DNA of 37,145 bases from a virus, in IMG/VR virus record IMGVR_UViG_3300028837_000116, positions 1 to 37,145 of that record; one strand, given 5' to 3'. Every line of letters begins with the position of its first letter. Within the stretch, counting starts at the first letter, position 1. Shown here in pieces: positions 9,691 through 23,932 of this stretch. A program made the position numbers and the translations under genes. The notes under the pieces were generated by a model. The model did not search any database. It was not told where the DNA came from and worked only from the letters and a program-made list of their open reading frames with translations.

Positions 9691-11853
9691 ATGGGCGGAG
9701 AAGTCCTAAAAGCACAATATACTCATCCAGTTAGCGGCGTAACCACAATGGTCCCGGTCAAATGTTCCACTGATGGTTCATTAGCCGTAACCGGTGGTGG
9801 CGGTGTTGCTACAGATGTTAAGCCTTGCAATGATGGTATTACTCAATTATCTATCTTGAGTGATGCTGCTGGCCAGATTTATATAGGCCATGATGGAGTA
9901 AACGAACAATTTATTCTTACAGATAACACTGGCAAGATAATCCTGAATGATGGCACGGGGATGAAGATCTGTGATGATCCTCTAGCCGGTGGACCATACT
10001 ATGCGTTGTCTGATGTAAACGGTCAACTCTATATGGCTCACGATGGAGCCAATCCCCAGCTTCTATTGTCAGATGCTAACGGAGTTCTTTATCTAGGTTG
10101 GGATGGTGCTGCGGCTACCAAACTAAAGACTGATGCTGCTGGTAAATTAGAAACAGTAGGTGGCGGGACTTCTATGGTTGGTGATGACATCGGTGCTGGT
10201 GGACCATACTACTTGCTTACAGATGTAGCTGGTCAACTATTAGCTGGTCATGACGGCGCTAACGCTACATATCTCAAGACTGACGCTGGCGGAGAACTGC
10301 AGATTGATGTAGTTGGACCGCTAGGTTCTCAGCTTGAAGCTGCTTCGGTATCTGTTGCTCCTCCTACGGATGCTAGATTCCAAGTTTCCAAGGATGTTAA
10401 TGCTAACGTAGAAGGTAATCCTATCTTCGTTAGAATCAGTGATTCTTTGAATTCGGTTGATGTTGTAGCTGCTGGCGCAGATAATGAAGCCAATGCTATC
10501 AAGGGTCTGGTAACTTATTCTCGACTCATGGGATTCGATGGTGCTACTTGGGACAGAGCAGGAATTACTGCTGGTGCCATGGATACTTATCTTACTGGTC
10601 CGCTGGGTTCGGCTATTGGAGCTAACTCAATCTCTACTGCTCCTGCCAGTGATGCCAGATATCAAGTCAGCAAAGATGCGGCTGTCAATGCCACGGGCAA
10701 TAGAATCTGGGTAACTTCAGATACGGATATGGTTGGCGGAGTTGCAGTAAACGTCAATGGCGGTAATAGAGATGCTGGAACCCAGACTGTTACGCTGGCT
10801 GATAACGATCTCGCAGTAATTGCTGTAGAGACTATCGAGAATGCTGTTCATCAAGACGATGCAATCTTTACTCCAGGTTCTGATGGTGTCATGGCAGCCG
10901 GATTCAGATTTGACGATGTAGCAACAGATCCAGTAGACGAGAACGATGTTGGTATCGCAAGGATGTCAGCCAACAGAAATCAATATATGACTATTCGCGA
11001 TGCAGCTGGTAACGAAAGAGGAGTTAATGTTAGTGCTGGCAATGCGATGGCGACAGATATAGCTGAGCAATCCCTCACTGCCGTAAAGGTCAGCGCAGAT
11101 GCAGCCGCCAATGCTGTAGGCAATCCTATTCATGTGGAACTTAGTGATGGTGCTGCTGGCTTCCTAGATAACACAGCCTCGCCCGGATATCTTAGACTAC
11201 AGGATGGAGATTCAACCGTACTAGCAGATATACTAGATGATTTTCCAACCAGTACATTAGCTGGAACAACCAATTCATTAGTAACCACTAGCTTGATGTT
11301 GGGTTATGATTATGTTGATTCGTTCAGACCATTAGCTGTTGGTACAGATGGACAGCTTGCAGTTGGTACTGATGGTAGCGATCCTACCGTATTGAAGACA
11401 GACGTAAATGGTCAGCTCTATGTACTACAGGGAGCATTACTTCCTGGTGAAGATTCAGGTAATGACTGGCGTAAGGTTAAGAAAGAAGAAGTAGCAATAG
11501 TAGCTCCAGCAAAGACTGGACCGACTACAGTAAGTGCCCCGACAACCATTCTAGCTGCTATAGAAATTCTCAACGATATCAATTGGACAGTAACTGTTGA
11601 AAATAGCGGTGGCGCTCCTCTCACAGCTTTGACTCTTCGAGTTTCCCCAGATAGTGCTACTTGGATAGCCCTTCCTGGTGCTGTCGCGGCTGGATATGGT
11701 GGTTTCCGTACTCAGGGTTGGAGTGACACTCTAGCTGCCGGTGCGATTTGTTATGCCGGTATCATGAGCAATAGTTTTAGATATCTCTACATTGAAGCAG
11801 ATTGCGACACTTCAACTACTGTAAATGTATGGTATACAGCTAACAAGGGCTAA
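9691..11853 (+). CDS. Repeat-rich tail appendage / fibre protein
   Basis: This 720-residue protein is rich in Gly, Asp, Ala and Val. At least four imperfect copies of a beta-turn module of the form D-x-x-G-Q-L-Y-x-G-H-D-G occur near residues 45, 107, 181 and 567. A second module (GPLGS followed about 15 residues later by DARFQVSKD) occurs twice, near residues 209 and 305, with a third weaker copy near 465. The last 110 residues form a separate beta-sandwich-like domain with a WTVTVENSGG strand. Such repeats are typical of elongated trimeric fibres. It lies between the ejection genes and the multi-domain adhesin-like protein, so a role in the tail appendage is likely. Confidence 0.66.
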   Translation: MGGEVLKAQYTHPVSGVTTMVPVKCSTDGSLAVTGGGGVATDVKPCNDGITQLSILSDAAGQIYIGHDGVNEQFILTDNTGKIILNDGTGMKICDDPLAGGPYYALSDVNGQLYMAHDGANPQLLLSDANGVLYLGWDGAAATKLKTDAAGKLETVGGGTSMVGDDIGAGGPYYLLTDVAGQLLAGHDGANATYLKTDAGGELQIDVVGPLGSQLEAASVSVAPPTDARFQVSKDVNANVEGNPIFVRISDSLNSVDVVAAGADNEANAIKGLVTYSRLMGFDGATWDRAGITAGAMDTYLTGPLGSAIGANSISTAPASDARYQVSKDAAVNATGNRIWVTSDTDMVGGVAVNVNGGNRDAGTQTVTLADNDLAVIAVETIENAVHQDDAIFTPGSDGVMAAGFRFDDVATDPVDENDVGIARMSANRNQYMTIRDAAGNERGVNVSAGNAMATDIAEQSLTAVKVSADAAANAVGNPIHVELSDGAAGFLDNTASPGYLRLQDGDSTVLADILDDFPTSTLAGTTNSLVTTSLMLGYDYVDSFRPLAVGTDGQLAVGTDGSDPTVLKTDVNGQLYVLQGALLPGEDSGNDWRKVKKEEVAIVAPAKTGPTTVSAPTTILAAIEILNDINWTVTVENSGGAPLTALTLRVSPDSATWIALPGAVAAGYGGFRTQGWSDTLAAGAICYAGIMSNSFRYLYIEADCDTSTTVNVWYTANKG

Positions 11854-11876
11854 TAGCTCTTTAGGAGCCATGTCAT

Positions 11877-14800
11877 ATGGTAAACTATAAAATCCTCGAT
11901 TGTCCTTTCGCGGGAATCAATCTAGATGCTCGGACTATGGTTAGGGAATCTACTCTCTGCGAGTATATCAGTAGAGTAGTTCCTTCAACCGGATATCTAA
12001 TTGACCAGTCTGGCGAGAATCTTGTTCCTTATAGCGAAGATTTTTCCAGCTGGACTCAATCGGGAACCTGTGCTGTAACCAGTGATGATGCATATGGACC
12101 ACCTCCAGATATTAGAAAGACAGCTGATAAGCTAGACAATACCGGAGATAGCAGCGGATATAGACGAAGTTATACTCCTGCTCTAGGAGTACTTCAAGGA
12201 AGAACATTTACCGCCAGTGTATATCTCAGAGCAGATATACCACATCTCTGCACTATCATTTTGATTGAAGATGGAATAGCCCAACTCGAAGTAAAAGATG
12301 TTAGTGTAACTAATACTTGGAAAAGATTTTCGGTAAATGGTACTTGCACCTCACTAGTGGGTGTTCAAACGGTTTCTCTAGTAGTTGTACCTGGTCGAAC
12401 TGGAGTAGCTTCTGGTGTATGTCATGCATATGGAGCTTTGATTGTAGAGAACACAGATAATGTTATCCCTAATGTTGGAATCTATCATCCAACTGACGCA
12501 GATATTATTTATAGAATGGATTTACAACCATCAAATGCTCCTACCCATATACCTAGTATAATCCAATCTTATCAAGGAAGTAGACTACAGTCTGCCAATT
12601 TAAATGGAGTCAATCAATACTTCTCTATGGCTCACGATGCGAGCATGAATATTTTTGATGGAGAACATACTATAACTATTCTATTCAGACTTGATTCTGA
12701 TACTAATTCTGTCCTGTTCGCTCATGGTTCTAGAACTGTTGATGGGGTAGTGGTTCGATATGATGCTCCCAATAATAGAATAAACGCTTACTACAGTAAG
12801 GCTGCAGCTGAAATAGGGCCAGGTACAGGTGTAAATTCGATACGGACTAATTCTTGGTATGTCTTACAGATGACAAGAAATATTTCTAGTCACCTTGATA
12901 TATATGCAAACGGACATCCTGGAGGAGGCGGTTCGAATATTGCTACCTATGGGATTGATGGAGCCAGAGCCTGGGTTGTTGGGGCCGATAGTGCAGGAGC
13001 TAATCCTTTCCCCGGAGAGATAGCTTATCTGCGGGTAGACAAAGAATATTTAACTATTCAGGAGCTAGTCGAGGAAAGAGAACACCTGCTAGGTATAGCT
13101 ACTGGTACAAGCAACAAAAATAAACCGCAACGTTACTGGTTTTATGATACACCCATTCCAGCTGATGAACCTAGTGGTCATCACACTTTGTCGGATGCTT
13201 CTATAACTCAGCTATCAGTGAATACTCCTACCACTCCCTTCGGGATCAATGTTCCTAGAGTTGGAGGTAAGGGTGGTGGAGTGATAGTTGAATATCCAGG
13301 AATCAATATGTATAGATATTCTTGGGATTTTACTCAATGGATTAAATATCTTTGTACCGTGAATCTAGATGCTACCATAACTAGCCCAGCACGAGATGGA
13401 TTAACGCATGTGATTGTTGAAGATAATGCCAATGGTCAACACGGTGTCAAACTTGATAACAATCTTGTTGTTGGTCAAGACTATGTACTTTCTGTATATG
13501 TTAAACCTGCGAATAGAAGCTGGATTTATCTCTATCTAAACGATGATGCTCCCGGTGATCATAGCTGTTATTTTGATATTGTTAACGGTATAGTCGGTAC
13601 CGCTGTTAGATCTGTTGGACATATAGAGGCTTTAGATAATGGTTGGTATAGATGTGTTATGACATTTACAGCGAGTGCTACTGCATTACGTAGTTGCAGA
13701 ATCTATACTGCGACTGGTGATGGTGGTGTTGTTTATCTAGGATTGAGCCAAGATTCAATATATATTTATGGAGCCCAATTCGAAATATCTGGTTCTAGTG
13801 GTACTGAATTATATGCCACAGAATATCATAGTTGTGATGGCACCCCTATAGCTCGTCAGCCAAATACGATGGTTCTTCCTCTAAGACCTATGGGAGAAAT
13901 CAATCCCCCTGGCAATCCTCTTATGGAAATCTATTTTGAGAAAGATGTAGGAGCTACTTATACTACCGAGACTGGCGCTTACATCATGACAGTCAGTGGA
14001 ACTCCAACTAGACTTCCTGACGACACATATCCGACTGGATGGAATAACAATATTGGTGATGGTGTGCGACGTGGATATATGTGGGACTTTGATGGAACCA
14101 ATGATTATCTCACTAGAGCAGACGATGGAACCTTCGACCCTGCTGGGAGTTTCAGTGTGCAGGCTATTGTACAAACAGATTCAATCTCAGGTGATGGCGT
14201 TATTATGTGCAAGGACAACACTACTACTGAACGAGGATGGCAACTTACTCGTACTGCTGGCGATGATATCTTCTTTAGAATATTCAATGCTGCAGGTGTT
14301 GGAACTTCCGTACAGAAAGGAAATATTACTACAAGCGAATATGTAGTAATTACTGCAACGTATGAGTATGTAGGTGCAGGTACTAGCAAGTTGAGACTAT
14401 ATGTAAATGCACTTGATACTGCTAGCTCAGATATTGCAGTTGGCCCTACCAAGAATGTAGGAGTCGGCCTTAGTATAGGAGCTGTAAGTACTGGAGCTTA
14501 CAAACATAATGGCAAGATTCATTACTTGAATTACGAAGACGGCACTGTATTGACTGAAGCCCAGCATGATGAATTCTATGAGACATTCATTGGAGATGAC
14601 ACGACAGAAACTCCACACAGTATCTATAGCCAACCCAGACGTTTGATTGATCCTCCTGTGATTGGGAATAGCGAATACTGGAAGAAACTTACGATGGAGT
14701 TTGAATGTAATCTTGAGTACAGCGGATCTGCCGAAGCTGGCGGAAGTAAATCAATGGTAGAAATTAGTAGTGCTCTTACTGGTAGTACGGCTAATAGATT

Positions 14801-15113
14801 TGCCGTGTATTATAGCGCAGGTAAAGTAGGAGCAGCGCTATGGGATAGTGTTGCTGGTCTTCGCTATATTTACACTGCTCTCGATCCTGTAGATTTTACA
14901 GATTGGCATAAGGTTAAATTTCACATTGATACGGGTGACATGAGCAACATGGACCTATGGATTGACGACAGTAATATTGGCAATGTATATACTAATCGTA
15001 CTGGTACTTGTGATTTCGATACAACGGAATGCTCAATCAGAATAGGTGACAACTTTCAAGATACGCTTACACTAAACGGAAGAGTTAGAAATCTAAAGGT
15101 CTGGCTCGAATAA
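11877..15113 (+). CDS. Multi-domain receptor-binding protein with LamG-like and carbohydrate-binding-like domains
   Basis: This 1078-residue protein is probably the host-recognition appendage. The domains I can trace are: a carbohydrate-binding-like beta sandwich at about residues 45-210 (starting NLVPYSEDFSSWTQSG); a LamG/concanavalin-like domain at 235-390; a second carbohydrate-binding-like domain at 475-645; a second LamG-like domain at 730-900 (starting MWDFDGTNDYL); and a third LamG-like domain at 930-1078. The two N-type sandwiches share the pattern in which TW or GW is followed by a strand and a Cys-rich segment. These folds bind sugars or act as trimer surfaces. No glycosidase motif was identified, so binding rather than cleavage is inferred. 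Confidence 0.7.
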   Translation: MVNYKILDCPFAGINLDARTMVRESTLCEYISRVVPSTGYLIDQSGENLVPYSEDFSSWTQSGTCAVTSDDAYGPPPDIRKTADKLDNTGDSSGYRRSYTPALGVLQGRTFTASVYLRADIPHLCTIILIEDGIAQLEVKDVSVTNTWKRFSVNGTCTSLVGVQTVSLVVVPGRTGVASGVCHAYGALIVENTDNVIPNVGIYHPTDADIIYRMDLQPSNAPTHIPSIIQSYQGSRLQSANLNGVNQYFSMAHDASMNIFDGEHTITILFRLDSDTNSVLFAHGSRTVDGVVVRYDAPNNRINAYYSKAAAEIGPGTGVNSIRTNSWYVLQMTRNISSHLDIYANGHPGGGGSNIATYGIDGARAWVVGADSAGANPFPGEIAYLRVDKEYLTIQELVEEREHLLGIATGTSNKNKPQRYWFYDTPIPADEPSGHHTLSDASITQLSVNTPTTPFGINVPRVGGKGGGVIVEYPGINMYRYSWDFTQWIKYLCTVNLDATITSPARDGLTHVIVEDNANGQHGVKLDNNLVVGQDYVLSVYVKPANRSWIYLYLNDDAPGDHSCYFDIVNGIVGTAVRSVGHIEALDNGWYRCVMTFTASATALRSCRIYTATGDGGVVYLGLSQDSIYIYGAQFEISGSSGTELYATEYHSCDGTPIARQPNTMVLPLRPMGEINPPGNPLMEIYFEKDVGATYTTETGAYIMTVSGTPTRLPDDTYPTGWNNNIGDGVRRGYMWDFDGTNDYLTRADDGTFDPAGSFSVQAIVQTDSISGDGVIMCKDNTTTERGWQLTRTAGDDIFFRIFNAAGVGTSVQKGNITTSEYVVITATYEYVGAGTSKLRLYVNALDTASSDIAVGPTKNVGVGLSIGAVSTGAYKHNGKIHYLNYEDGTVLTEAQHDEFYETFIGDDTTETPHSIYSQPRRLIDPPVIGNSEYWKKLTMEFECNLEYSGSAEAGGSKSMVEISSALTGSTANRFAVYYSAGKVGAALWDSVAGLRYIYTALDPVDFTDWHKVKFHIDTGDMSNMDLWIDDSNIGNVYTNRTGTCDFDTTECSIRIGDNFQDTLTLNGRVRNLKVWLE

Positions 15114-15136
15114 GCTCAATTATGGAGGAATAACAA

Positions 15137-15658
15137 ATGGTAAAACTATCTTCTAATTCTCGAATGAAAGCATTGGGCGTAGAATTGAAGAGCCCAGATC
15201 ATACTCTTAATCCTGGTGTCGGAGTAGATAACCAGGAGAACATTTTTACGGTCACGGGCTCAGTTCGTATCCATGCTCTATGGCTGCACGTCACTACAAT
15301 GACTGATACTACTGTGTTCGATAACGTGCAGTTCAAGATTGATTCAGCTGGTGGAAGCGATGACATTACAGCAGTGAACGCAGCTGGTGCTCAAGCTATT
15401 AGTAAAGGTTGTCTTCTTGCCAGGACCGATGTATCAGGTAATGCACTTACTGTTCTCAATCCTGGAACCAGTGCTATCATCGCAGATCCTATCGTCGGTG
15501 CAGCAGACCTATTGCCTTTCATTGCTCTAGAACAAACTGCTGGAGTCGCAAGCACTATCCTATTTGAATATGACGCAGATGCTGCAACTGATTTAGTTGT
15601 GTGTGCTCACTGTATCTGGTCGCCTCTGTCCGAAGACGGACAAGTAGTAGCCGTATAA
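15137..15658 (+). CDS. Small beta-rich virion protein
   Basis: This 173-residue protein consists mostly of alternating hydrophobic/polar strands with Gly/Asp turns, which suggests a beta sandwich such as a tail-tip or decoration protein. Family not identified. It follows the multi-domain appendage gene by 23 nt with a TGGAGGAAT ribosome binding site and precedes another small beta protein, so it is co-expressed with the appendage genes and probably decorates them or the tail. There are no membrane segments. Confidence 0.65.
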   Translation: MVKLSSNSRMKALGVELKSPDHTLNPGVGVDNQENIFTVTGSVRIHALWLHVTTMTDTTVFDNVQFKIDSAGGSDDITAVNAAGAQAISKGCLLARTDVSGNALTVLNPGTSAIIADPIVGAADLLPFIALEQTAGVASTILFEYDADAATDLVVCAHCIWSPLSEDGQVVAV

Positions 15659-15673
15659 CAAGGAGAGATTATA

Positions 15674-16066
15674 ATGAGTGCAATTACAAACCCAACTGAC
15701 ACTGATGTTCTGGCTGACGTAACTAACGGAACCGATGCCACTTATACTTATCAGTATCCGCGCATGGATTCATATTCCAAGACAGCTCTACAGATGGCCC
15801 TGAGCTGTACTGCGGGAACAGTTACTGCTACCATCGAAGGTAGTGTTGAAGCTGACAAGTCCGAAGACGATGCAACTTACGATGATATGACCAACGAAGT
15901 ATTCGGCGTGATGTCTTTAGTAGCTTCTGCTGGTTCAGCTGCTGATGTATGGATCGATGACCTCGGTGCATTAGGTTGTTGCAAGTATGTAAGAGTAAAG
16001 ATTGTCGCAGCTACCGGCGCAGACACTGGTGACTGGAAGCTATCGCTAAAGAAGAAAGTTCTCTAA
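15674..16066 (+). CDS. Small beta-rich virion protein
   Basis: This 130-residue acidic protein has a regular strand/turn pattern and ends in a basic tail (SLKKKVL). It is similar in size and character to its upstream neighbour but I see no convincing alignment between the two. The ribosome binding site is AAGGAGAG, 15 nt after the previous stop. It is probably a structural component of the tail or its appendages. Function inferred only from location and predicted fold. Confidence 0.65.
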   Translation: MSAITNPTDTDVLADVTNGTDATYTYQYPRMDSYSKTALQMALSCTAGTVTATIEGSVEADKSEDDATYDDMTNEVFGVMSLVASAGSAADVWIDDLGALGCCKYVRVKIVAATGADTGDWKLSLKKKVL

Positions 16067-16080
16067 GGGATAGATCTATT

Positions 16081-16350
16081 ATGGGAAAGCCAGGTGAATT
16101 AGTGAAAGCTATAGAGGTTAGCGAGAGACTAGCAAGACTTGAAGCCCTGCTGGAAGGTATCAAGGAACATCTTAATGACCAGAAGAAAGAAGACGAGAAG
16201 CTCGGAAATAAAATAGATAAGATTCTGGCCAACGATTCAGTGAAGCTTCAGCGCATTGCTAAGAATGAAACCAAACTCAAGAACATCAAAGCTACCCTGT
16301 GGATATTTGCAGTAGCACTAGCCGGAGCAGTAGTTAAGACTTTTGTGTAA
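16081..16350 (+). CDS. XhlA-like coiled-coil protein with one C-terminal membrane helix
   Basis: This 89-residue protein has a long heptad-like charged helix (about residues 10-68) followed by one hydrophobic segment (residues 71-88) reaching the C-terminus. This architecture is that of the XhlA/haemolysin-type membrane proteins that assist host lysis, and it also resembles some tail-anchored virion proteins. It is the last gene of the long structural run, where lysis genes often sit. It starts 15 nt after the preceding stop with a weak ribosome binding site (AGGGAT). A second holin-like protein is encoded at 19538. Confidence 0.6.
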   Translation: MGKPGELVKAIEVSERLARLEALLEGIKEHLNDQKKEDEKLGNKIDKILANDSVKLQRIAKNETKLKNIKATLWIFAVALAGAVVKTFV

Positions 16351-16573
16351 GTCATTGATATACTTTTCGAAAAAAGTTCTTTAGTAAATTCAACAAGATA
16401 AGTCATTTCTTGTAAGCTATTTTACCCAAAAGCATCTAACTCCTCGTAATTACAACAGAAGATTTATTGAAAAAAACTCAATAAAAACTCACTGGTCGGA
16501 ATAACACTCTACGAAAACATTAGATAATTTCCACCATATGTATATGGCTCGCTATGCAGAGATTTCAAAAGTG
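16351..16573. other. AT-rich noncoding control region between late and early genes
   Basis: I see no gene here. The region holds a 6-bp stem ACTTTT/AAAAGT (16362-16377) just after the last structural gene, which could be a weak terminator. An 8-bp AT-rich stem TTTATTGA/TCAATAAA with a 7-nt loop lies at 16463-16485, with no T tract after it. A 14-bp palindrome, listed separately, lies at 16534-16547. It ends at the promoter that serves the replication gene. Confidence 0.6.
16534..16547. promoter_or_regulatory. Operator-like palindrome CCATAT-GT-ATATGG
   Basis: Perfect 6-bp arms are separated by 2 bp. The site is centred about 48 bp upstream of the predicted transcription start, just upstream of the -35 position of the adjacent extended -10 promoter. 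Its 6-2-6 geometry matches that of the GGACAG-NN-CTGTCC sites in the next gene, although the sequence differs. A role as a regulator binding site is inferred. Confidence 0.4.
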
Positions 16574-16582
16574 TGCTATACT
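16574..16582 (+). promoter_or_regulatory. Extended -10 promoter for the replication gene
   Basis: TGC followed by TATACT gives an extended -10 element. No good -35 hexamer lies 16-18 bp upstream, as is common for extended -10 promoters. The predicted start is about 16589, immediately before an in-frame ATG at 16591 and 107 nt before the ATG I prefer for the initiator. Confidence 0.5.
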
Positions 16583-16602
16583 GATAATAGATGGAAAATA
16601 AA

Positions 16603-16688
16603 TCCGGGGAACAGATAGCGAAAAGAGATGGGTCTACTTGGCTAGCCTCCCCGGACTGGTTGGGTAGGCCCATTTTATTATTAGGAGG
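16603..16688 (+). ncRNA. Pseudoknot-forming 5' leader (possible cis-regulatory RNA)
   Basis: Two interleaved helices can form. Stem 1 pairs 16603-16610 with 16648-16655 (TCCGGGGA with TCCCCGGA, 8 perfect pairs). Stem 2 pairs 16628-16637 with 16664-16673 (10 pairs, one G-U). The order arm1, arm2, arm1', arm2' is that of an H-type pseudoknot. Stem 2 can alternatively extend by pairing 642-647 with 658-663, which competes geometrically with stem 1. It is followed by TTTTATTATT and then the AGGAGG site at 16683-16688. This suggests attenuation or translational control. It matches no riboswitch class I can recall. Confidence 0.45.
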
Positions 16689-16695
16689 AAGCGAA

Positions 16696-17295
16696 ATGAG
16701 CGAACAGGAAGCATACAAGCTAGAACATAGACCATTAGGTAGGTTCGGGCTGATATTCCGGCAGGAGATTGAAATGCTAGCAAAGGCCCGTAAAGATGGG
16801 ATAATTGGTTCTAGAGAGCAAGCAGTCTATATGGTTCTGGCAACTTATGCAGACAAAGAAGGAGTCTGCTGGCCTAGCGTAGTGACATTGGCTAAAGACC
16901 TTGGTTGCACTATCAAGACTGTAAGTAGGGCATTGACAGTTCTGTCCAATGCTGGAATCATTAGCCGTCAGCGGCGTTGGAATAACTCAAGTATTATCAA
17001 CCTGATGGAGAGAAAGGACAGTTCTGTCCCTACCCCTTCCGAGGACAGTTCTGTCCAAGAGCAGAGTAAAAGGACAGATCAGTCCCTAATGAAAGGACAG
17101 ATATGTCCACCTAACATACCAGTTAACAAACCAATTAAGAATATAGATCTTAAGAAGGCTAGCAAAGAAGAAAAATCTTCTACTGCTAGGAAGCCTAAGA
17201 AGGATTCTTTTGAAGGTTTACTTAGAGAACGTAACTGGGATGTTGACATAGAAGCTTATGAGAACCCTAAAGATAATGAACCTTTGCCTTTCTAA
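16696..17295 (+). CDS. Winged-helix replication initiator-like protein (origin inside gene)
   Basis: This 199-residue protein has an HTH_36-type winged helix at about residues 39-93 (QAVYMVLATYADKEG, then WPSVVTLAKDLG, recognition helix TIKTVSRAL, wing near RQRR), as found in phage and plasmid replication initiators. The rest is polar and disordered, with a basic patch KKASKEEKSSTARKPKK and an acidic/Trp C-terminal tail that could contact a host replication protein. I chose ATG 16696 because AGGAGG lies 7 nt upstream. An in-frame ATG at 16591 would add 35 residues. The gene carries palindromic repeats (iterons) and an AT-rich tract, as the lambda O gene does. No other replication protein is recognisable in the genome. 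Confidence 0.65.
   Translation: MSEQEAYKLEHRPLGRFGLIFRQEIEMLAKARKDGIIGSREQAVYMVLATYADKEGVCWPSVVTLAKDLGCTIKTVSRALTVLSNAGIISRQRRWNNSSIINLMERKDSSVPTPSEDSSVQEQSKRTDQSLMKGQICPPNIPVNKPIKNIDLKKASKEEKSSTARKPKKDSFEGLLRERNWDVDIEAYENPKDNEPLPF
16934..16947. repeat. Outlying iteron copy TGACAG-TT-CTGTCC
   Basis: This differs by one base from the GGACAG-TT-CTGTCC palindrome repeated 82 bp downstream. It lies within the DNA-binding domain coding region of the initiator gene, so coincidence with coding constraint is possible. Confidence 0.4.
17016..17108. repeat. Cluster of four palindromic iterons, predicted replication origin
   Basis: Four 14-bp sites with arms GGACAG and CTGTCC separated by 2 bp lie at 17016-17029 and 17043-17056 (both GGACAGTTCTGTCC), 17072-17085 (GGACAGATCAGTCC) and 17095-17108 (GGACAGATATGTCC). 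Start-to-start spacings are 27, 29 and 23 bp. The copies fall in all three reading frames of the host gene and encode different peptides (KDSSVP, EDSSVQ, RTDQSL, KGQICP). The conserved unit is therefore DNA and not protein. Iterons inside an initiator gene are the classic layout of lambdoid origins. Confidence 0.7.
17109..17165. other. AT-rich tract beside iterons, candidate DNA unwinding element
   Basis: Directly after the fourth iteron the sequence becomes rich in A and T (for example ACCAATTAAGAATATAGATC) and still codes for the disordered part of the initiator. In lambda-type origins an AT-rich segment next to the iterons melts first. Assignment by analogy. Confidence 0.4.
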
Positions 17296-17375
17296 TCAAG
17301 GCAGCCGGGGATATACTATCTCCCTTGCTAGCCCAAAGCCTGTCGTCTCAATTAAGCTTATTACTTCCCGCCGGC

Positions 17376-17404
17376 TTGACATTTCTGCTGACCTATAATA
17401 TACT
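17376..17404 (+). promoter_or_regulatory. Strong sigma70-like promoter of the early operon
   Basis: TTGACA (17376-17381) is followed after exactly 17 bp by TATACT (17399-17404). This is a perfect -35 and a near-consensus -10. Transcription would start near 17411 and run through the early small-gene operon from 17431. A short 7-bp stem (GGGGATA with TATCTCC) with a 3-nt loop lies upstream at 17307-17323. Confidence 0.75.
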
Positions 17405-17430
17405 AAAGTAAACCACATATAGGAGGAACC

Positions 17431-17619
17431 ATGAAAGTATACGCCGTAGTTGAGAATATGGGATATGACGGAGATTGTCTACTGGGTATATTCAGCACCA
17501 AGGAACGGGCAGATGAAGTAGCTACCAGGATTGCCAAGAAGCATTGCCATCCGAGAAATGGGTTCTACGATGTTACGGTAGAGGTTTATAAACTGGACGA
17601 GCTAGTGAACGAGGAATAA
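17431..17619 (+). CDS. Small early protein, first gene of the early operon
   Basis: This 62-residue protein contains the pattern GIFSTKERADEVA near residues 19-31, seen in small phage proteins whose beta-alpha unit follows an N-terminal MKVY(A/L)V strand. No function is known to me. It has a strong AGGAGG site 3-4 nt upstream of the ATG and is the first gene after the consensus promoter, so it should be abundant early in infection. The position suits a host-takeover or regulatory role, but that is inference. Confidence 0.65.
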   Translation: MKVYAVVENMGYDGDCLLGIFSTKERADEVATRIAKKHCHPRNGFYDVTVEVYKLDELVNEE

Positions 17620-17621
17620 AG

Positions 17622-17867
17622 ATGTCAGCTTCAATTCATTGGTCACCAATATCGACCAAACATAATCGTCTATCAACGAATACGCCGTCTAGATTCGTGA
17701 CTGCCATGGAGATGGTCTTTGGCGGATTTCCTATCCAGCTTGAGAACGATCACGAAACTACAACTGCATTACGTGGCATGCATGCTGGCAGCGACGATAT
17801 GATCTATGCTTGTCTTTTGGAAGCCCTGGAGAAGTTTGACAGAATCCGGGTCTGGGCGGAATATTAA
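17622..17867 (+). CDS. Small hypothetical early protein
   Basis: This 81-residue protein was not recognised. It has a polar N-terminus (SPISTKHNRLSTNTPSRF) and a helical C-terminal half ending RIRVWAEY. It starts 2 nt after the preceding stop and ends 2 nt before the sigma-like gene, so it is part of the early operon. There are no membrane segments or metal-binding motifs. Confidence 0.6.
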   Translation: MSASIHWSPISTKHNRLSTNTPSRFVTAMEMVFGGFPIQLENDHETTTALRGMHAGSDDMIYACLLEALEKFDRIRVWAEY

Positions 17868-17869
17868 GA

Positions 17870-18583
17870 ATGAAGAATAAATACCACGATATGTCCTCTG
17901 AAGAAGTTCAGAAGTATGCCATCAAAACTCTTGACTGTCTGTTCAAGAAGCATCAGCCACCGGGAGAATTTGATGACTACCTTAATGATGCATGGATTAA
18001 ACATCTGAAGTATAAAGACAAACCTGACTATAGTCTTTCAAACTCCATAAAATGGAGCTTCTTTAAAAGCTGGCTAAAGCATGAACAATATAGTCGGCTC
18101 AAGAGCAGAGCTTTCCACATGCTGGCAGATCTAGACTACATGGACCGATTGAACTCGGCAAGCTGCTTGAATCCCACTACAGAAGATTACAGTTTCACGG
18201 TTGAAGACATAAGCGGCCAAGTTCCAATCCATGGTCGTATATCGGCAGAGCATTTCGTAGGAGAATATACCCGTAAGAACACGATAGAGGTTGACATGCG
18301 CTACAGGGTAGCTTACAATAAACTCAAGGATTCACTAAAACCAGCATACCAAGAAATCTTAGAACTCTGGAAGATTGGTTTAGGCTCAAGAGATATAGCT
18401 GAATTATTTGGTTGTACCAGGAATAACATCTGGCAGAAGATGCAGGAGATCAAGATTCAGGCGCATGAATTATTCGGAGTCCCATTGCCAGAGAATCTAA
18501 AGAAATACTATGACAAGCGAGAGAAGAGTCTCAAGAGATTCAATACAAGAAGGAATAAAAGCGCAGTGAAGCAGGATGGATGA
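17870..18583 (+). CDS. Sigma-factor-like transcription regulator
   Basis: This 237-residue protein has two features of small sigma factors. A helical N-terminal segment (about residues 34-75, with DDYLNDAWIKHLKYK and then IKWSFFKSWLKHE) resembles region 2. A C-terminal helix-turn-helix (about 158-202: YQEILELWKIGLGSRDIAE, then LFGCTRNNIWQKMQEIK) resembles region 4. The tail is strongly basic. It lies in the early operon driven by a consensus promoter, so it could redirect host RNA polymerase to the late genes. It could equally be a simple HTH regulator, since region 2 is only weakly recognisable. Its last 8 nt overlap the next gene. Confidence 0.55.
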   Translation: MKNKYHDMSSEEVQKYAIKTLDCLFKKHQPPGEFDDYLNDAWIKHLKYKDKPDYSLSNSIKWSFFKSWLKHEQYSRLKSRAFHMLADLDYMDRLNSASCLNPTTEDYSFTVEDISGQVPIHGRISAEHFVGEYTRKNTIEVDMRYRVAYNKLKDSLKPAYQEILELWKIGLGSRDIAELFGCTRNNIWQKMQEIKIQAHELFGVPLPENLKKYYDKREKSLKRFNTRRNKSAVKQDG

Positions 18584-19241
18584 AATAACTAGAATGAAGA
18601 TTAGCGAACGACTATGGCAACTCGAAAATCACATAGACAATCCAGCGAAAGTAGGGAGGATTCTTTTGGATATTTATAAACTTCTTAACCCAGCCGACGC
18701 AGTTAAGATATGCCCCAAGTGTGAGGAAGAAAAAACCTTGGACAGCTTTTCCAAGAATCGTCGCACCAAAGATGGCAGGCAAGTCTATTGTAAGAAGTGT
18801 AAATCTACATACCAGAAAGTATATCGTAAGACTCCTGCTGGCAGAGAGACCCAACGTAGAAATAATCGCACCCCGTCATCGAAGGCTGCAAGGAAGAGAT
18901 ATATAAAGTCTGATAAGGGCAAGGAATCTGTCAAGCGTTATTACCAGTCAGATAAAGGCAAGCAGACAAGAAAAAGATATGACAAGAGACATCGCAATCG
19001 TGTACGGGCTCGTGAAGCAGTACGTCGAGCACTCAAAAGAGGAGATTTAGTCCGTCCAAATAAATGTCCTGAATGTAATAGAACTGATCTACCAATCGAG
19101 TCACATCATCCAAGTTACAAGAAGAAAGATTGGCTTAATATAGAATGGCAATGCAGCGAATGTCATGATAAGAAACATTGGCCCAAACAGGAGGAAGCGA
19201 ATGCCAAAGAGAAAAGCAAAAAGCGTAACCGTAGTAGATAA
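18576..19241 (+). CDS. HNH-type zinc protein, probable endonuclease
   Basis: This 221-residue protein has two zinc clusters. The first is CPKC (46-49) paired with CKKC (72-75) around a SFSKNRRTKDG segment, a zinc ribbon common in phage HNH proteins. The second is C164-x2-C167, a His pair at 177-178 in ESHHP, and C193-x2-C196-H197 with H201, the treble-clef/HNH layout of small phage endonucleases. Between them is a very basic region with a repeated SDKGK...KRY unit (residues 112-135) that probably binds DNA. It may act as a homing-type or replication-linked nuclease. It overlaps the sigma-like gene by 8 nt. Confidence 0.6.
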   Translation: MDEITRMKISERLWQLENHIDNPAKVGRILLDIYKLLNPADAVKICPKCEEEKTLDSFSKNRRTKDGRQVYCKKCKSTYQKVYRKTPAGRETQRRNNRTPSSKAARKRYIKSDKGKESVKRYYQSDKGKQTRKRYDKRHRNRVRAREAVRRALKRGDLVRPNKCPECNRTDLPIESHHPSYKKKDWLNIEWQCSECHDKKHWPKQEEANAKEKSKKRNRSR

Positions 19242-19545
19242 TACAGATGAGCCAGTTGTAGCTAACAACAAGCCCGAACTATTTAAAATAAAAACTTTAC
19301 CAGAACCAATATATGTTGGTACACTAGGAGTTCTTCTACATGAACTAATAAGCCGCCACGGCCCAATCAAGCTAGAGATTACCTATGCTACTGGAAGTCG
19401 CTTTAGTTATATCGTTGAGAAGGCTTTTGATGAGTATGTAATATGCAAAGGCCAAATTATTTTATCTCTACAGAATGCAGCCTACTTCCGTATACCGGAT
19501 AAAGAAGTTCTACAAACCCTACAGGAACTAACCTCAGATGAATAA
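19201..19545 (+). CDS. Hypothetical early protein
   Basis: This 114-residue protein was not recognised. After a basic N-terminus (PKRKAKS) comes a predicted mixed alpha/beta domain containing VLLHELISRHGPIKLE and a strand with ATGSRFSYIVEKAF. The open frame extends upstream to 19165, but I start at 19201 because AGGAGG lies 6 nt before it and the longer form would overlap the HNH gene by 77 nt instead of 41. The 3' end overlaps the holin-like gene by 8 nt. Confidence 0.6.
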   Translation: MPKRKAKSVTVVDNTDEPVVANNKPELFKIKTLPEPIYVGTLGVLLHELISRHGPIKLEITYATGSRFSYIVEKAFDEYVICKGQIILSLQNAAYFRIPDKEVLQTLQELTSDE

Positions 19546-19861
19546 ATGGAATTCCCGCAAATATAAACTTGCAGTTTGGTTGTGTGTTCTATTCACGGCC
19601 ATCTTTATTCTTCCATGGGTCACAACTCTGGTTCTTACTTTATGTGGTAGTCCAATAACTTTTCAGTTGCTTACTCCCGAGCTTTATGTTACACTTATGA
19701 CAATGCTATTCGCCAGTTATTTCGGAGCCAATGCAGCAGTCAAGTTTGCTACCAACGGGAATGGGAACGGGATCAAGAAAGGCGATAATCTAAGTGAAGC
19801 TCCAGGCACAGGTAGTGGAGGCCAACCTCCAGAACCTCCAGAGATTCCGGTGAACACATGA
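19538..19861 (+). CDS. Holin-like protein with two membrane helices
   Basis: This 107-residue protein has a short basic N-terminus, membrane segments at about residues 11-37 and 48-70, and a polar Gly/Pro-rich C-terminal tail. The second segment contains LFASYFGANAAVKFA, like the terminal helix of a family of small phage membrane proteins often annotated as holins. Together with the XhlA-like protein at 16081 it is the best lysis candidate. No endolysin lies next to it, which weakens the assignment. The stop shares bases with the next start (ATGA). Confidence 0.5.
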   Translation: MNKWNSRKYKLAVWLCVLFTAIFILPWVTTLVLTLCGSPITFQLLTPELYVTLMTMLFASYFGANAAVKFATNGNGNGIKKGDNLSEAPGTGSGGQPPEPPEIPVNT

Positions 19862-20028
19862 ACGGTCTAGGTTGCGAAGGTTGCAAGTGTTTCAAGAATA
19901 TAGATGACGACAAGAATATCTATCGCACAGGCTTCTGTAATTTAGACATGAGTGAGGTAGGCAAAAAACAGAGAATTTGTGAGGACTTTGAACTGAAGAA
20001 AGATAACGATGAGCAAGACAAACAATAA
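19858..20028 (+). CDS. Very small cysteine-rich protein
   Basis: This 56-residue protein has Cys at 6, 9, 11, 27 and 41 in the arrangement CEGCKCF...GFCN...ICEDFE. This resembles the N-terminal CxxC-x-x-F cluster of the larger protein at 22168 and probably binds one zinc. It begins in an ATGA overlap with the holin-like gene and ends within the next gene (20-nt overlap), which supports real translation despite its size. Function unknown. Confidence 0.6.
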   Translation: MNGLGCEGCKCFKNIDDDKNIYRTGFCNLDMSEVGKKQRICEDFELKKDNDEQDKQ

Positions 20029-20386
20029 ACTATCACCTGGTCCGTGGAAATGGTTAGCCGTGGGAGTCCATAATAAGACAGCCCCATATAATTACCGCAA
20101 TATTTACGTGGAAGATTTACCAAAAGTATTAGATAACTCCAGTCATTATCTTCTAATGGGATCAGAACATGATATTGAAGAAGCTTATTATGGCTGTGTT
20201 ATTGAGGATGGCAGTGCTTGTGGAGAATATTCTGGTATTGATCCTCGTAGTCCAGATGCTTTACTTCTAGCAAGTGCGCCGACTTTATTCAAAGCCTTAC
20301 TTTTCATTGCATCAAATCCCGATGATTTTAGTTATAAAACAGCGGCTGTAGAAGTCGCCCGCAAAGCAGTTAATTGGAAAGAATAA
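20009..20386 (+). CDS. Small phage protein of the SPGPWKW / LLASAP type
   Basis: This 125-residue protein has an N-terminal SPGPWKW motif and a C-terminal DALLLASAPTLFKALLFIA helix. The pairing is recurrent in small early proteins of many unrelated phages, where it is of unknown function. There are no metal ligands or membrane segments. The related helix pattern AKIMAAAPDMLYVLEG appears in the protein at 21358, so the two share a C-terminal module. It overlaps the previous gene by 20 nt. Confidence 0.65.
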   Translation: MSKTNNKLSPGPWKWLAVGVHNKTAPYNYRNIYVEDLPKVLDNSSHYLLMGSEHDIEEAYYGCVIEDGSACGEYSGIDPRSPDALLLASAPTLFKALLFIASNPDDFSYKTAAVEVARKAVNWKE

Positions 20387-20405
20387 CCAAAGCAAAGGAG
20401 AAACA

Positions 20406-20747
20406 ATGAGTGCAGTCAGATCAACGACTAAAGTAGCAGAGAATCTATCTGAAGTAACCATGCAGCATGACTTTATTCTATTACAGAAGGTAACAGTAGA
20501 CGATGGGGTGATGGTGGAACTTCCTGATGAGTTCAAAGAGTTCAGGCTTCGGGCAGTTGCAATAGGTCCTGGTTTGATGGCACAGGCAGAAGGCGGCGGA
20601 TTTGAAGTAGTCCCCATGTCCGTAAAGGTTGGAGACTTGGTACAGTTCGCAGGTTCAGCTATTGATATCAAGATTGGCGAAGAGACTTTTGGTGTTGTAC
20701 GTGACAATCAGGTACTTCTAACTGTAAGTTCAGCGACGGTGTGTTAA
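20406..20747 (+). CDS. GroES-like co-chaperonin
   Basis: This 113-residue protein fits the GroES/Cpn10 fold from residue 20: a first strand with HDFILLQKV, a short loop DDGVMVELPDE in the position of the GroES mobile loop (GVMV resembling the GIVL contact motif), then LRAVAIGPG, then VKVGDLVQFAG, and a final strand pair ending NQVLLTV. These match the GroES order of strands, the A-x-G-x-G turn and the KVGD motif. The family caps the GroEL chamber during folding, and phage versions (T4 gp31 type) adapt GroEL to capsid protein. It has an AAGGAG site and overlaps the next gene in a TAATG. Confidence 0.72.
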   Translation: MSAVRSTTKVAENLSEVTMQHDFILLQKVTVDDGVMVELPDEFKEFRLRAVAIGPGLMAQAEGGGFEVVPMSVKVGDLVQFAGSAIDIKIGEETFGVVRDNQVLLTVSSATVC

Positions 20748-20968
20748 TGTCCAAGAAAGAGCGAAACGTAGACAAGTCCCTTCTTGAATGTCCATACTGT
20801 CGATCCACTAACTTTATCACAGCAGTAGGTACTAAACCTTACTCACCAGAAGAAAGAGAAGTTGACTTCGATAGGACAATGTGGCACATGCAGTGTTTGT
20901 CTTGCAAGCAGGGATGGACTGAGATCTACAAGATCGAATCTGTAATTCTACTAAGCGAGGAGGTATAA
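20747..20968 (+). CDS. Small zinc-ribbon protein
   Basis: This 73-residue protein has C15-x2-C18 and C50-x2-C53 separated by a polar segment, so it probably folds as a single zinc ribbon. The start is taken as the ATG in the TAATG overlap with the GroES-like gene. A GTG two codons upstream in the same frame is an alternative. It could bind nucleic acid or a host protein. No closer family is recognisable. Confidence 0.62.
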   Translation: MSKKERNVDKSLLECPYCRSTNFITAVGTKPYSPEEREVDFDRTMWHMQCLSCKQGWTEIYKIESVILLSEEV

Positions 20969-20969
20969 A

Positions 20970-21365
20970 GTGCTATACGGAAAAATGATAAAGGAGTTAA
21001 GTCTGTTCACTTTCTATCGTACAGTTAATAACATAGACTATAGCGCCCACCAGGATACTCTTATGCTCATGGATATTTCCACTTATCACCAGCAACTCAA
21101 AGACCTATGGCAAATCCAGCCTGCTTCTCTGATGTTCACTGAGGACGAGATAGCAGCTATCCAAGCAAGTCAGGGTGTTAACAAGTTCTCAACAGTAGAT
21201 TTTCTATCCAGAGCAGGTGAACTAAGGAAGCGTGGCGAGGAGCTAATTGAGTTCTATCCCCGTCTCATCCCTGACGAATTTATCCGTAATCCTAAAGAGG
21301 AAGCTGCCGAGGATGCAGAACTAGAGAACAAGACACCACTGATTAGGGAACCAAAAGATGTATAA
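20970..21365 (+). CDS. Hypothetical early protein (GTG start)
   Basis: This 131-residue helical protein was not recognised. A very good ribosome binding site (GAGGAGGT, about 5 nt upstream) supports the GTG start, and there is no nearby in-frame ATG of similar quality. The middle contains predicted helices with FTEDEIAAIQASQG, and the C-terminal tail is acidic. It ends with an 8-nt overlap with the next gene, so translation is probably coupled. Confidence 0.6.
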   Translation: MLYGKMIKELSLFTFYRTVNNIDYSAHQDTLMLMDISTYHQQLKDLWQIQPASLMFTEDEIAAIQASQGVNKFSTVDFLSRAGELRKRGEELIEFYPRLIPDEFIRNPKEEAAEDAELENKTPLIREPKDV

Positions 21366-21657
21366 CTACTCCTGGCGAGAATACAACTGGATTGGCTTGC
21401 CCATGAGCAAGAAGTGTGGAGATTTTTATGAAGTTATAGATTTGAATATTGACCATCCCGCCGCACGTTATATTGAGAACGATCTAGACGCTAAGATTAT
21501 GGCAGCCGCGCCCGATATGTTGTACGTCCTTGAAGGAATCGAATGGGTTAAAGATCCAGAAGGCCCTAGGTTCTGTCCTTACTGTTATAACACCGAAGAC
21601 ACCGGACATATGAAGAACTGCAAACTAGCTGCAGCACTCAAGAAAGCTAAGGGATAA
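21358..21657 (+). CDS. Small zinc-finger protein, CxxC...HxxxC module
   Basis: This 99-residue protein has a conserved alanine-rich helix (AKIMAAAPDMLYVLEG, residues 45-60), then an EW pair (62-63) and a zinc-finger-like module C73-x2-C76-x7-H84-x3-C88, and finally the helix LAAALKKAK. The same EW plus CxxC/HxxxC module recurs in the genes at 21660, 22168 and 23214. The start overlaps the previous stop by 8 nt. A role in nucleic-acid or protein binding is likely, but the target is unknown. Confidence 0.65.
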   Translation: MYNYSWREYNWIGLPMSKKCGDFYEVIDLNIDHPAARYIENDLDAKIMAAAPDMLYVLEGIEWVKDPEGPRFCPYCYNTEDTGHMKNCKLAAALKKAKG

Positions 21658-21659
21658 TT

Positions 21660-21941
21660 ATGAAAGAAGATAAAGGCTGGGTAGAAATCACACATCTCGC
21701 CCAAGAACTTTTTAATGAATCCTTTCGTGTAGATAATCCCGATACACGTAGCCTTTTAATCCAAGCATCAGACAGGATTATAAAACTAGAGAGTCTCCAA
21801 TACCTCATGCTAGAAGCTCTTGAAGCTGCAGAATGGGGAAGCCATAGCTATAAACAATGTCCGGTATGTGGAGAGCTAGGTTCATTGCCACATCTTCCCG
21901 ATTGTCTCCTTGCTAATGCGATTAAGAAAGCTAAAGAATAA
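21660..21941 (+). CDS. Small zinc-finger protein, paralogous module
   Basis: This 93-residue protein shares its C-terminal half with the upstream gene: LEALEAAEW (51-59), then C67-x2-C70-x7-H78-x3-C82, then LANAIKKAKE. The N-terminal half differs (a helix with SLLIQASDRIIKLE). This suggests duplication and exchange of a C-terminal zinc module. It starts 2 nt after the preceding stop. Confidence 0.65.
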   Translation: MKEDKGWVEITHLAQELFNESFRVDNPDTRSLLIQASDRIIKLESLQYLMLEALEAAEWGSHSYKQCPVCGELGSLPHLPDCLLANAIKKAKE

Positions 21942-21943
21942 TT

Positions 21944-22168
21944 ATGGAACTTCCTAATCTTACAGTAACAAAGCCGCCCCAGATAATCACATGGAGATGC
22001 ATTGGAGATCCTACAGCACTATTCAAGATGTTCATGAATCCTCAGAACAAAGTAGAACTCTGGGACTGTCAGAATCCAAAAGATATAATCCTTGCCATAA
22101 GAGATGGCTATAGTATGTTCCCTGCCGGCCAGACATTTGTTATCTCTGATGTGGAGTGGAGAAGATAA
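21944..22168 (+). CDS. Small hypothetical early protein
   Basis: This 74-residue protein was not recognised. It is a mixed alpha/beta protein with Cys at 19 and 42 but no metal cluster. It sits between two zinc-module genes, 2 nt after one stop, and overlaps the next start in a TAATG. The ending EWRR is reminiscent of the EW motif of the neighbours but lacks the finger. Confidence 0.58.
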   Translation: MELPNLTVTKPPQIITWRCIGDPTALFKMFMNPQNKVELWDCQNPKDIILAIRDGYSMFPAGQTFVISDVEWRR

Positions 22169-22596
22169 TGGAACGACTAACTTGTGGGAATTGTGAGTTC
22201 TTTGAAGAGTGTGGACAGGTGGACTTATCAGAAGATCCATATTGTAGTGGATATACACAGTGTCCAGCTATGAGCGAAGTGAGAAGGTTGAGGGTGATCC
22301 CAACAGAGAAACAGATGGAAGGCTTCGAGTTCATGTGGGACAGCGCAGAGTACACAGGCCCAGCAAAGGAATATCCCATTGTCAAAGACTTACTTTCTAT
22401 AATCAATGTATTATTAGATAAGATCGATTTGCTTCAGGAAGATTTAGATCACCTTGAATGGTCTGGATGGTCACATGCTTGTAGTGGTGCTGATTGCTGC
22501 CCAGACTGTAGAGCAATGTATAAGTATCCTGGTGGCGGCGAACATTTTGAAGGTTGCACATACTATAAACAAAAGAATAAAGATGAAGTGTCCTAA
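22168..22596 (+). CDS. Two-cluster zinc protein
   Basis: This 142-residue protein has an N-terminal Cys cluster (C6, C9, C15, C26, C32) starting TCGNCEFF, related to the small protein at 19858. A helical middle (about 70-95) leads into the shared module: LEW (96-98), then C111-x2-C114 and H126-x3-C130. It is thus a fusion of two small zinc modules found separately elsewhere in this operon. I start at the ATG overlapping the previous stop (TAATG). A GTG four codons upstream is the alternative. Confidence 0.62.
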   Translation: MERLTCGNCEFFEECGQVDLSEDPYCSGYTQCPAMSEVRRLRVIPTEKQMEGFEFMWDSAEYTGPAKEYPIVKDLLSIINVLLDKIDLLQEDLDHLEWSGWSHACSGADCCPDCRAMYKYPGGGEHFEGCTYYKQKNKDEVS

Positions 22597-22705
22597 CTGC
22601 AGCACAGAACTAATCAAGAAGCCTAAGACCGGCGAAGGTATTAAGCATTGTCCCAACTGTGGTTATGGCTGGTTCATCCTCAATACTAGCAAGCCTAAGG
22701 AGTAA
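22583..22705 (+). CDS. Tiny zinc-ribbon protein
   Basis: This 40-residue protein starts MKCPNC and has a second CPNCG after about 20 residues, a minimal zinc ribbon. It overlaps the preceding gene by 14 nt in another frame. The open frame extends back to 22454, but that extension lies wholly inside the preceding zinc-protein gene and has no ribosome binding site, so the short form is more plausible. Confidence 0.5.
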   Translation: MKCPNCSTELIKKPKTGEGIKHCPNCGYGWFILNTSKPKE

Positions 22706-22708
22706 CTT

Positions 22709-23014
22709 ATGAATCCAGAAGATCTCAACCACACGTTACACTACATCTACTGTATTCCTCCGAAGATATTAACCAGTCTAGCAGACTTCGCTCTAGAAGA
22801 ATTCAAGAACTATGTTCCAGATATTATAGCCAAGCACTTCAACTTTGCTATAGATATACGACCCGCGCCCATTCCATACACAGATCACTGGCTTATAATC
22901 CCAGATGAAGATGGTTATGAGTATCGTATAGTCTTAGGCATCCGCGCATATCCAAACTATAACCCTGCCAGCCAAGATACTAAAGAACCCATCCAACTAG
23001 AATTTGACTTCTAA
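22709..23014 (+). CDS. Hypothetical early protein
   Basis: This 101-residue protein was not recognised. Its N-terminal half is helical and its C-terminal half contains strands with HWLIIPDEDGYEYRIVLGI. It ends in the acidic/aromatic tail IQLEFDF, which resembles the C-terminal peptides that phage and bacterial proteins use to dock on SSB or the sliding clamp. That is a pattern resemblance only. It starts 3 nt after the preceding stop. Confidence 0.58.
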   Translation: MNPEDLNHTLHYIYCIPPKILTSLADFALEEFKNYVPDIIAKHFNFAIDIRPAPIPYTDHWLIIPDEDGYEYRIVLGIRAYPNYNPASQDTKEPIQLEFDF

Positions 23015-23017
23015 CTC

Positions 23018-23221
23018 ATGACAGACGAATATGAAGCTAGATGGAGCTGGGTGTGGGAAACATATTGCGGACACCCTATGTTACGTTGCTGTATCTGTGA
23101 TAGATTCATAAAAGAGAAGACTTCTTGGTATATGACTTCATCGAATGAATGGATGTGTGAAACCTGTTACGATATTTGCGAACATATAGCAAAGAAGATT
23201 TTAGAGGAGACCAATGGCTGA
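23018..23221 (+). CDS. Small cysteine-rich, probable zinc-binding protein
   Basis: This 67-residue protein has Cys at 17, 24, 25, 27, 47, 50 and 54, forming two CxxC-type pairs (CCIC and CETC) and several Trp residues in the N-terminus. It could bind one or two zinc ions. It ends in TGA, which overlaps the next start by 8 nt, supporting coupled translation with the amber-interrupted gene that follows. Confidence 0.6.
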   Translation: MTDEYEARWSWVWETYCGHPMLRCCICDRFIKEKTSWYMTSSNEWMCETCYDICEHIAKKILEETNG

Positions 23222-23606: not shown

Positions 23607-23649
23607 CAGAAACTAACCAAAAACTTAGGAAGGAAGGATAGCATAGTTT

Positions 23650-23781: not shown

Positions 23782-23791
23782 TCACTCGGAC

Positions 23792-23829
23792 ACCAGGGAT
23801 TCCATGTATGAGTCTCTGGTTTCATTTTG
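23792..23829 (+). terminator. Rho-independent terminator at end of early operon
   Basis: An 11-bp stem (23792-23802 with 23810-23820, two G-U pairs) with a 7-nt loop is followed by TTCATTTTGTT. It lies 10 nt after the last early gene. Confidence 0.65.
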
Positions 23830-23932
23830 TTCAACAAGATCGCGCGGTTATATTATCCCACTCTAATACTACAAAGACATAGACCCTAAATACCCTAGTA
23901 TAACAGTATAGAAATTGTATAAAGTATAGCGC

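Follow-up and report, generated by a model that had tools for sequence, protein, structure and literature searches.

Iteron origins located within genes have been described for phage lambda, the Stx phages, SPP1 and pSK41-type rep genes, so this kind of origin is already known. In lambda, inverted-repeat iterons lie in the middle of the initiator gene O with an AT-rich region adjoining them (NC_001416 annotation; excerpts of PMC7466680), and the same excerpts describe in-gene origins for lambda and the Stx phages. In SPP1, the oriL repeats are located inside the initiator gene 38 and are accompanied by an AT-rich unwinding element (excerpts of PMC6316719). The rep gene of pSK41, whose product belongs to the RepA_N family and has a winged helix-turn-helix (HTH) N-terminal domain, contains four Rep boxes centrally, and the origin encodes the linker; pPR9, which replicates, has a Rep with an HTH_36 (pfam13730) N-terminal domain akin to a phage replication protein (excerpts of PMC5703833). 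Repeats inside the gene for gp18 of Salmonella phage L were proposed as its origin, and according to the authors of that study the proteins of lambda, P22 and L appear to bind differing iterons in their own genes (excerpts of PMC8022706). For RepA (RepA_N) of the V. cholerae satellite PLE, the origin sequence was reported to covary with the DNA-binding domain (excerpts of PMC8263062).

The origins of most uncultivated phages are unknown, and an in-gene box type would locate them directly in metagenomic phage genomes. In this work, we analyzed a virus record from IMG/VR over its full length of 37,145 bases (hereafter, the window), for which a first-pass annotation had proposed palindromic iterons inside an initiator gene as the probable replication origin. 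The features of the record that are discussed below are the following:

1..37145: the whole IMG/VR virus record, with a terminal direct repeat
16696..17295, plus strand: proposed replication initiator gene, 199 aa; winged HTH (HTH_36) at about residues 39-102, remainder of low confidence
16906..16944, plus strand: recognition-helix codons, C71-TIKTVSRALTV-L83; K74 and S77 align to two residues co-varying with box bases
16934..16947, no strand: outlying box TGACAGTTCTGTCC, one mismatch, inside the HTH-coding part
17016..17029, no strand: box 1, GGACAGTTCTGTCC, exact
17043..17056, no strand: box 2, GGACAGTTCTGTCC, exact
17072..17085, no strand: box 3, GGACAGATCAGTCC, one arm mismatch
17095..17108, no strand: box 4, GGACAGATATGTCC, one mismatch to the 6-2-6 palindrome, exact for the family core GGACA-N4-TGTCC
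17109..17148, no strand: AT-rich stretch directly 3' of the last box, proposed unwinding element

The record carries a perfect 144-bp direct repeat at both termini (1-144 and 37002-37145), leaving 37,001 unique bases, and thus probably represents the complete genome of a phage. The structural genes recognized in it include ones for the portal, the major head protein, terminase and tail proteins. The open frame of the boxed gene starts at 16591, and the start codon ATG 16696 was picked by the preceding AGGAGG. The product matches Pfam HTH_36 above the cut-off (E 2.3e-13), in line with the winged-helix protein named in the first-pass annotation, and its best PHROG matches are replication initiation families with PHROG_270 at the top (1.4e-18). 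In the structure model of this protein, the ten-residue mean pLDDT is at least 84 at residues 21-100 and at most 68 beyond. A fold search of the model against PDB placed CodY, MarR and similar winged-helix regulators best, with near-equal scores for many of them, so that the search does not discriminate, and the matches include 4pt7 ("initiator") and 5kbj ("Rep-DNA complex"). These two are presumably RepA_N plasmid proteins; RepA_N is absent from the Pfam matches of the window protein, so the resemblance is at the level of fold only. A single-protein search of viral contigs found no close relative of the gene. The terminase search led to one contig with a 100% identical terminase; the coordinates given for this contig place its end 1.85 kb upstream of the terminase, and if colinear it would stop short of the boxed gene.

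The layout of the locus, inverted-repeat iterons within an initiator gene beside an AT-rich tract, corresponds to that of lambda O, as had been pointed out previously. However, the lambda iterons are 18-19 bp long with TCCCTC-type arms (excerpts of PMC7466680), whereas the window boxes are of the form GGACA-N4-TGTCC. The accompanying claim that the initiator type is unlike lambda O holds at the level of Pfam, where lambda O is Phage_rep_O (PF04492), the window protein is HTH_36 with no match to Phage_rep_O, and a direct comparison of the two profiles gave a probability of 1.6%; both proteins nevertheless match PHROGs 678, 345 and 391 ("replication initiation O-like"). Gene P is adjacent in lambda, whereas no loader was recognized in the window. 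SPP1, which was set beside the window by description, differs in that its repeats are described as direct and that a loader (gp39) and a helicase (gp40) are encoded (excerpts of PMC6316719). The C-terminal domain of pSK41 Rep binds primase (excerpts of PMC5703833), whereas the window protein extends just 61 residues past the last box. PLE resembles the relatives of the window gene in the covariation of origin and DNA-binding domain and is unlike the window in its semi-palindromic iterons of about 30 bp, which lie in a noncoding region (excerpts of PMC8263062). Phage L was considered as a published member of the group and rejected: its repeats are 11 bp long, and it has no GGACA box, no repeated palindrome with 5-base arms and no HTH_36. 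In the open-access literature searched, we came across neither the GNCA-N4-TGNC box class nor the residue-base rule presented below, and a search for six exact box sequences was likewise without result.

When up to one mismatch is allowed among the 12 arm bases of GGACAG-NN-CTGTCC, exactly five sites are found in the window, all within one gene. The four main sites are located where the first-pass annotation had placed them and are 23-29 bp apart as it said, with the fifth variant 82 bp upstream at 16934 (start-to-start spacings of 82, 27, 29 and 23 bp for the five sites); only two of the four are perfect 6-2-6 palindromes, and the other two have one arm mismatch each. Counted from ATG 16696, the sites fall into codon phases 1, 2, 2, 1 and 0, so the reported use of all three phases is confirmed and the sites are not simply a protein repeat. 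The genome count suggested earlier, at up to two mismatches, adds a single further match at 23277, while at up to three mismatches the total is unremarkable (15 sites vs 9.9 on average in 100 shuffles, 7 of which attain 15). In 60 dinucleotide shuffles of the window, the mean number of sites at up to one mismatch is 0.05 and the maximum is 1. Three copies of one palindrome with 5-base arms within 200 bp, as present in the window, occur in 0 of 60 dinucleotide shuffles, and codon shuffles of the gene reach three copies in 0 of 200. Chance does not explain the window's boxes. The box at 16934 lies in the HTH codons, unlike the first boxes of most relatives, and may be fortuitous.

A protein-blind scan for two GGACA-N4-TGTCC boxes 22-52 bp apart retrieved at least 120 viral stretches, and the complete scan with the reversed control of the same composition, ACAGG-N4-CCTGT, retrieved 14. 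Among the 80 clusters examined, 73 are located in ORFs of at least 90 aa, and the 7 clusters with no ORF of that length were dropped. HTH_36 is matched by 47 of these 73 ORFs, and an iterated HTH profile, built from the same set and hence partly circular, by 51 but not by the other 22; none of the 25 ORFs overlying 15 control clusters matches the HTH profile. The same layout is present in many distantly related phages. In genome contigs, an HTH initiator over a cluster was found at 4 of 80 loci, among the matches listed. Boxed HTH genes of the same type were observed at four loci in the bacterial genomes of Rhizobium sp. L43, Proteobacteria bacterium RHODO1, Primorskyibacter aestuariivivens and Roseovarius halotolerans (L294, L307, L317 and L324, respectively), perhaps in prophages. 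The palindrome GGTCA-N4-TGACC, which was intended as a neutral control, was found in 111 stretches and rejected for this purpose, since it instead marks winged-helix ORFs (HTH_Crp_2 in 36 and HTH_36 in 20 of the 65 ORFs scanned); it was reused as data. The winged-helix ORFs marked by GGTCA-N4-TGACC arrays (L125-L204) constitute another large group; many are about 420 aa long, and their box spacings are mostly 22-24, 33-34 and 45 bp.

The comparison with relatives changes the definition of the element: the 6-2-6 palindrome named in the first-pass annotation is replaced by GGACA-N4-TGTCC (5-4-5) with a variable center, and by a wider core GNCA-N4-TGNC. The distance from the HTH profile start to the first box has a median of 83 residues over the 51 HTH loci (73 residues in the window, with the outlier excluded). 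Flank counts, for which 46 of the 51 loci were taken, gave 162 boxes at up to one mismatch in the gene and 0 within 300 bp upstream or downstream; together with the lack of any box near the start of the window gene, this leaves promoter binding unsupported as a route for the autoregulation considered previously. The spacing of boxes in the 51 loci has a period of 11.05 bp (R 0.64; 0.41 for the top of 300 null draws), and 76 of 89 spacings fall on peaks near 21-24, 31-34, 41-47, 52-57 and 63-68 bp, which were named post hoc. The 22-24 peak contributes much of this signal; when the analysis is restricted to spacings of at least 30 bp, R is 0.52 at a period of 11.6 bp (n=37). The window spacings of 27 and 29 bp sit off these peaks, 2 of the 89 family spacings being at 25-30 bp.

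Two or more codon phases are used by the boxes of 49 of the 73 cluster loci and of 33 of the 51 HTH loci. The phase counts are uneven (87, 40 and 13 of the 140 sites in the HTH loci), thus the reading of the protein constrains the boxes too. For the comparison of synonymous codons, boxes were defined in one partner only, since requiring them in both would be circular. Codons for the same residue are identical at 48 of 48 positions in box arms vs 1312 of 1730 elsewhere in 8 pairs of at least 80% identity, and at 371 of 568 vs 11543 of 26690 in 286 lower-identity pairs, which are non-independent. The proposed selection on DNA is supported both by the multiple phases and by the arm codons. Two close genes (L011 and L067) differ by one additional 21-bp box unit, and the number of boxes therefore seems to change by duplication of a frame-keeping unit.

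Relatives were also picked by protein. Removal of 5 seeds, which came from boxed loci, and of 6 near-duplicates reduced 44 loci to 33, among which some close pairs remain as the near-duplicate test was lax. At least two GNCA-N4-TGNC boxes are present in 19 of these 33 relatives (0 of 33 for the reversed control), with 76 sites vs 11 in the reversed control and 6.9 in codon shuffles; the core cluster is absent from 14 of the 33. If the strict GGACA core is required, two exact boxes are present in 2 of the 39 non-seed loci, and two boxes at one mismatch in 10 of the 39. The variants AGACA, CGTCA, TGACA and GGTCA substitute for GGACA throughout entire arrays. In three loci (L423, L424 and L433), the arrays consist of hybrid boxes GGTCA-N4-TGTCC that combine a GGTCA half-site with a GGACA half-site, perhaps as a sign of an intermediate specificity. 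Relatives in named phages were represented by 24 of 202 matching records chosen for diversity, some of them weak matches (tblastn E 1e-7 to 0.8). None of these 24 has two GGACA boxes, and 8 of 24 carry another palindrome twice, between approximately base 280 and base 380 of the gene. The next gene encodes a DnaB helicase, a primase/helicase or a DnaC- or P-type loader in 10 of the 19 annotated named-phage relatives, several of these relatives being weak matches themselves, and the DnaB-like helicase family is matched by 12 of 90 downstream ORFs in viral relatives. For HTH_36 phage initiators (PHROG 270 and similar), a neighboring helicase, loader or primase gene is a frequent feature but not a universal one.

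The AT-rich tract reported just downstream of the boxes is present: positions 17109..17148 contain 72.5% AT vs 57.3% in the gene, and rank 999 among the 37,105 forty-base segments of the record. In the relatives (51 loci), the AT content of the 40 bp past the last box exceeds that of the gene by 13.7 +- 1.5 percentage points, and the excess in any other bin is at most 3 points. The GC skew, which had been recommended as a check, is positive along the entire record with no switch; it gives no origin signal and is uninformative for the origin.

The bases of the half-sites were compared with the residues of the recognition helix in 95 clusters (50% identity) covering four box classes, with residues in window numbering. 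Where base 3 is A, 55 of 57 clusters have a basic residue 74; where it is T, 16 of 38 do. One of the residues I, V, M, L, Q and Y occupies position 77 in 5 of the 47 clusters whose base 1 is G, compared with 35 of the 48 whose base 1 is T. When the tested HTH columns are ranked, residue 74 comes first for base 3, and residue 77 does so for base 1. Path-disjoint pairs changed in the same direction in 13 cases, in the opposite direction in 0 and were undecided in 9 for residue 74 and base 3, with 17, 1 and 11, respectively, for residue 77 and base 1; eight control helix columns gave nothing significant in such pairs. The tree for the pairs was built without the two columns, and the pairs were drawn, closest first, from all branches of the best tree, which covers a short domain and is poorly resolved; supported branches alone leave 3 and 5 pairs, too few for a test.

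Two predictions for residue 74 were made before the scans for TGACA and TGTCA boxes, which retrieved at least 120 stretches each and 42 and 49 HTH ORFs over 81 and 80 clusters, respectively. As predicted, TGACA boxes go with a basic residue 74 (26 of 27 clusters). TGTCA boxes go with the predicted non-basic residue in 8 of 21 clusters (9 of 21 with other representatives), which agrees with the prediction only in part. The two classes differ significantly at residue 74 (p 0.006), although for T the rule holds only loosely. For residue 77, the rule emerged only afterwards and had not been predicted. Two nearly identical helices, RTVRR at L026 and RTVIR at L471, are associated with GGACA and TGACA boxes, respectively. 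The S77 of the window protein is unusual with GGACA boxes (2 of 30 clusters). As the half-site bases co-vary with two recognition-helix residues, the protein, like lambda O, probably binds the boxes in its own gene; for the recognition helix as the probable reader of the box bases, the covariation is evidence of an indirect but specific kind. We lean, with some reservation, towards a broader proposal, in which HTH_36-type phage initiators would form a large undescribed specificity family with GNCA-N4-TGNC as the common core of the in-gene origin boxes, and the variable bases would be set by two helix residues (basic residue 74, A at base 3; R or K at residue 77, G at base 1; Q or I at residue 77, T). 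The protein and its origin would then travel and diverge as one coding segment, and the origin would be predictable from the protein, or vice versa, across uncultivated phages. Such a readable protein-DNA rule would reveal how an origin can change its specificity while the protein stays intact, and the helix-box pairs would supply a natural test set for DNA recognition by winged-helix proteins.

With considerable confidence, we interpret the window locus as an origin of phage replication situated within the gene for its HTH_36 initiator, where the boxes would be bound, the AT-rich 3' side would melt and a helicase would be recruited. This sequence-based interpretation, which the first-pass annotation had also considered probable, is well supported, mostly by the box clusters, the AT-rich neighbor and the helix-box covariation of the relatives. 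In the proposed mechanism, the winged-helix protein would bind the GGACA-N4-TGTCC dyad boxes just past its own HTH-coding part, probably as dimers, and several occupied boxes would together give rise to a nucleoprotein complex. Melting of the AT-rich 40 bp alongside would follow, and a helicase would be recruited there; for the window phage, we infer dimeric binding, melting and helicase recruitment. Less easily reconciled with this interpretation are the window spacings of 27 and 29 bp, the unusual S77 and the tail of 61 aa past the last box, which is as short in just 4 of 51 relatives. The recruitment step is without a partner in view: no helicase, loader, primase or polymerase was recognized in a scan of 40 window proteins, of which many have no match at all, the family scans having left out at least 8 small ORFs (at 20741, 22454, 24055, 27078, 28435, 28919, 29495 and 35060), and the phage thus presumably uses those of the host.

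Alternatively, the boxes could be operators, with the HTH protein acting as a repressor or roadblock that shuts its own operon from inside the gene and having no replication role. The best fold matches to CodY, MarR and similar regulators, the operator-like type of the palindrome and the shortness of the protein would all agree with this explanation. We nevertheless consider it unlikely given the empty 300-bp upstream regions of the 46 related genes, the position of the AT-rich neighbor on the 3' side, the replication initiators among the best PHROG matches and the helicase, primase or loader next to 10 of the 19 annotated named relatives. It is far less probable that selection acts on the protein, with repeated linker peptides of the DxSV/DKxV type being important and the palindromes a by-product: DKxV repeats do occur in the consensus of the relatives and one codon phase is favored (87 of 140 sites), but boxes in several phases at 49 of 73 loci encode unrelated peptides, synonymous codons are preferentially retained in the arms, and the box bases covary with the helix.

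A role of the boxes as mRNA hairpins controlling translation or decay, for which self-complementary arms and a 4-nt loop would be suitable, appears just as improbable as selection on the protein, because hybrid boxes of the GGTCA-N4-TGTCC type set U against U within the stem, the spacing of about 11 bp and the AT-rich neighbor suit DNA, and the box bases track the residues of the recognition helix. Repeat arrays act in partition too in other elements, and some other function in phage DNA, such as packaging or partition, could be imagined for the boxes; we assign it the lowest probability of all, as the gene that contains the boxes is of the initiator type, about 7 kb separate them from the terminase genes, and no ParA/B-like match was found among the 40 window proteins scanned. 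Under the preferred interpretation as a replication origin, the window poses the question of how a short initiator recruits a helicase with no recognized loader beside it.

Elsewhere in the window, a protein encoded at 20406-20747 is weakly similar to the GroES / Cpn10 co-chaperonin, and two genes (18576-19241 and 27543-27995) are HNH / endonuclease VII-like. A 25-bp near-repeat (84%) is shared by 18768-18792 and 30419-30443, in two unrelated genes.
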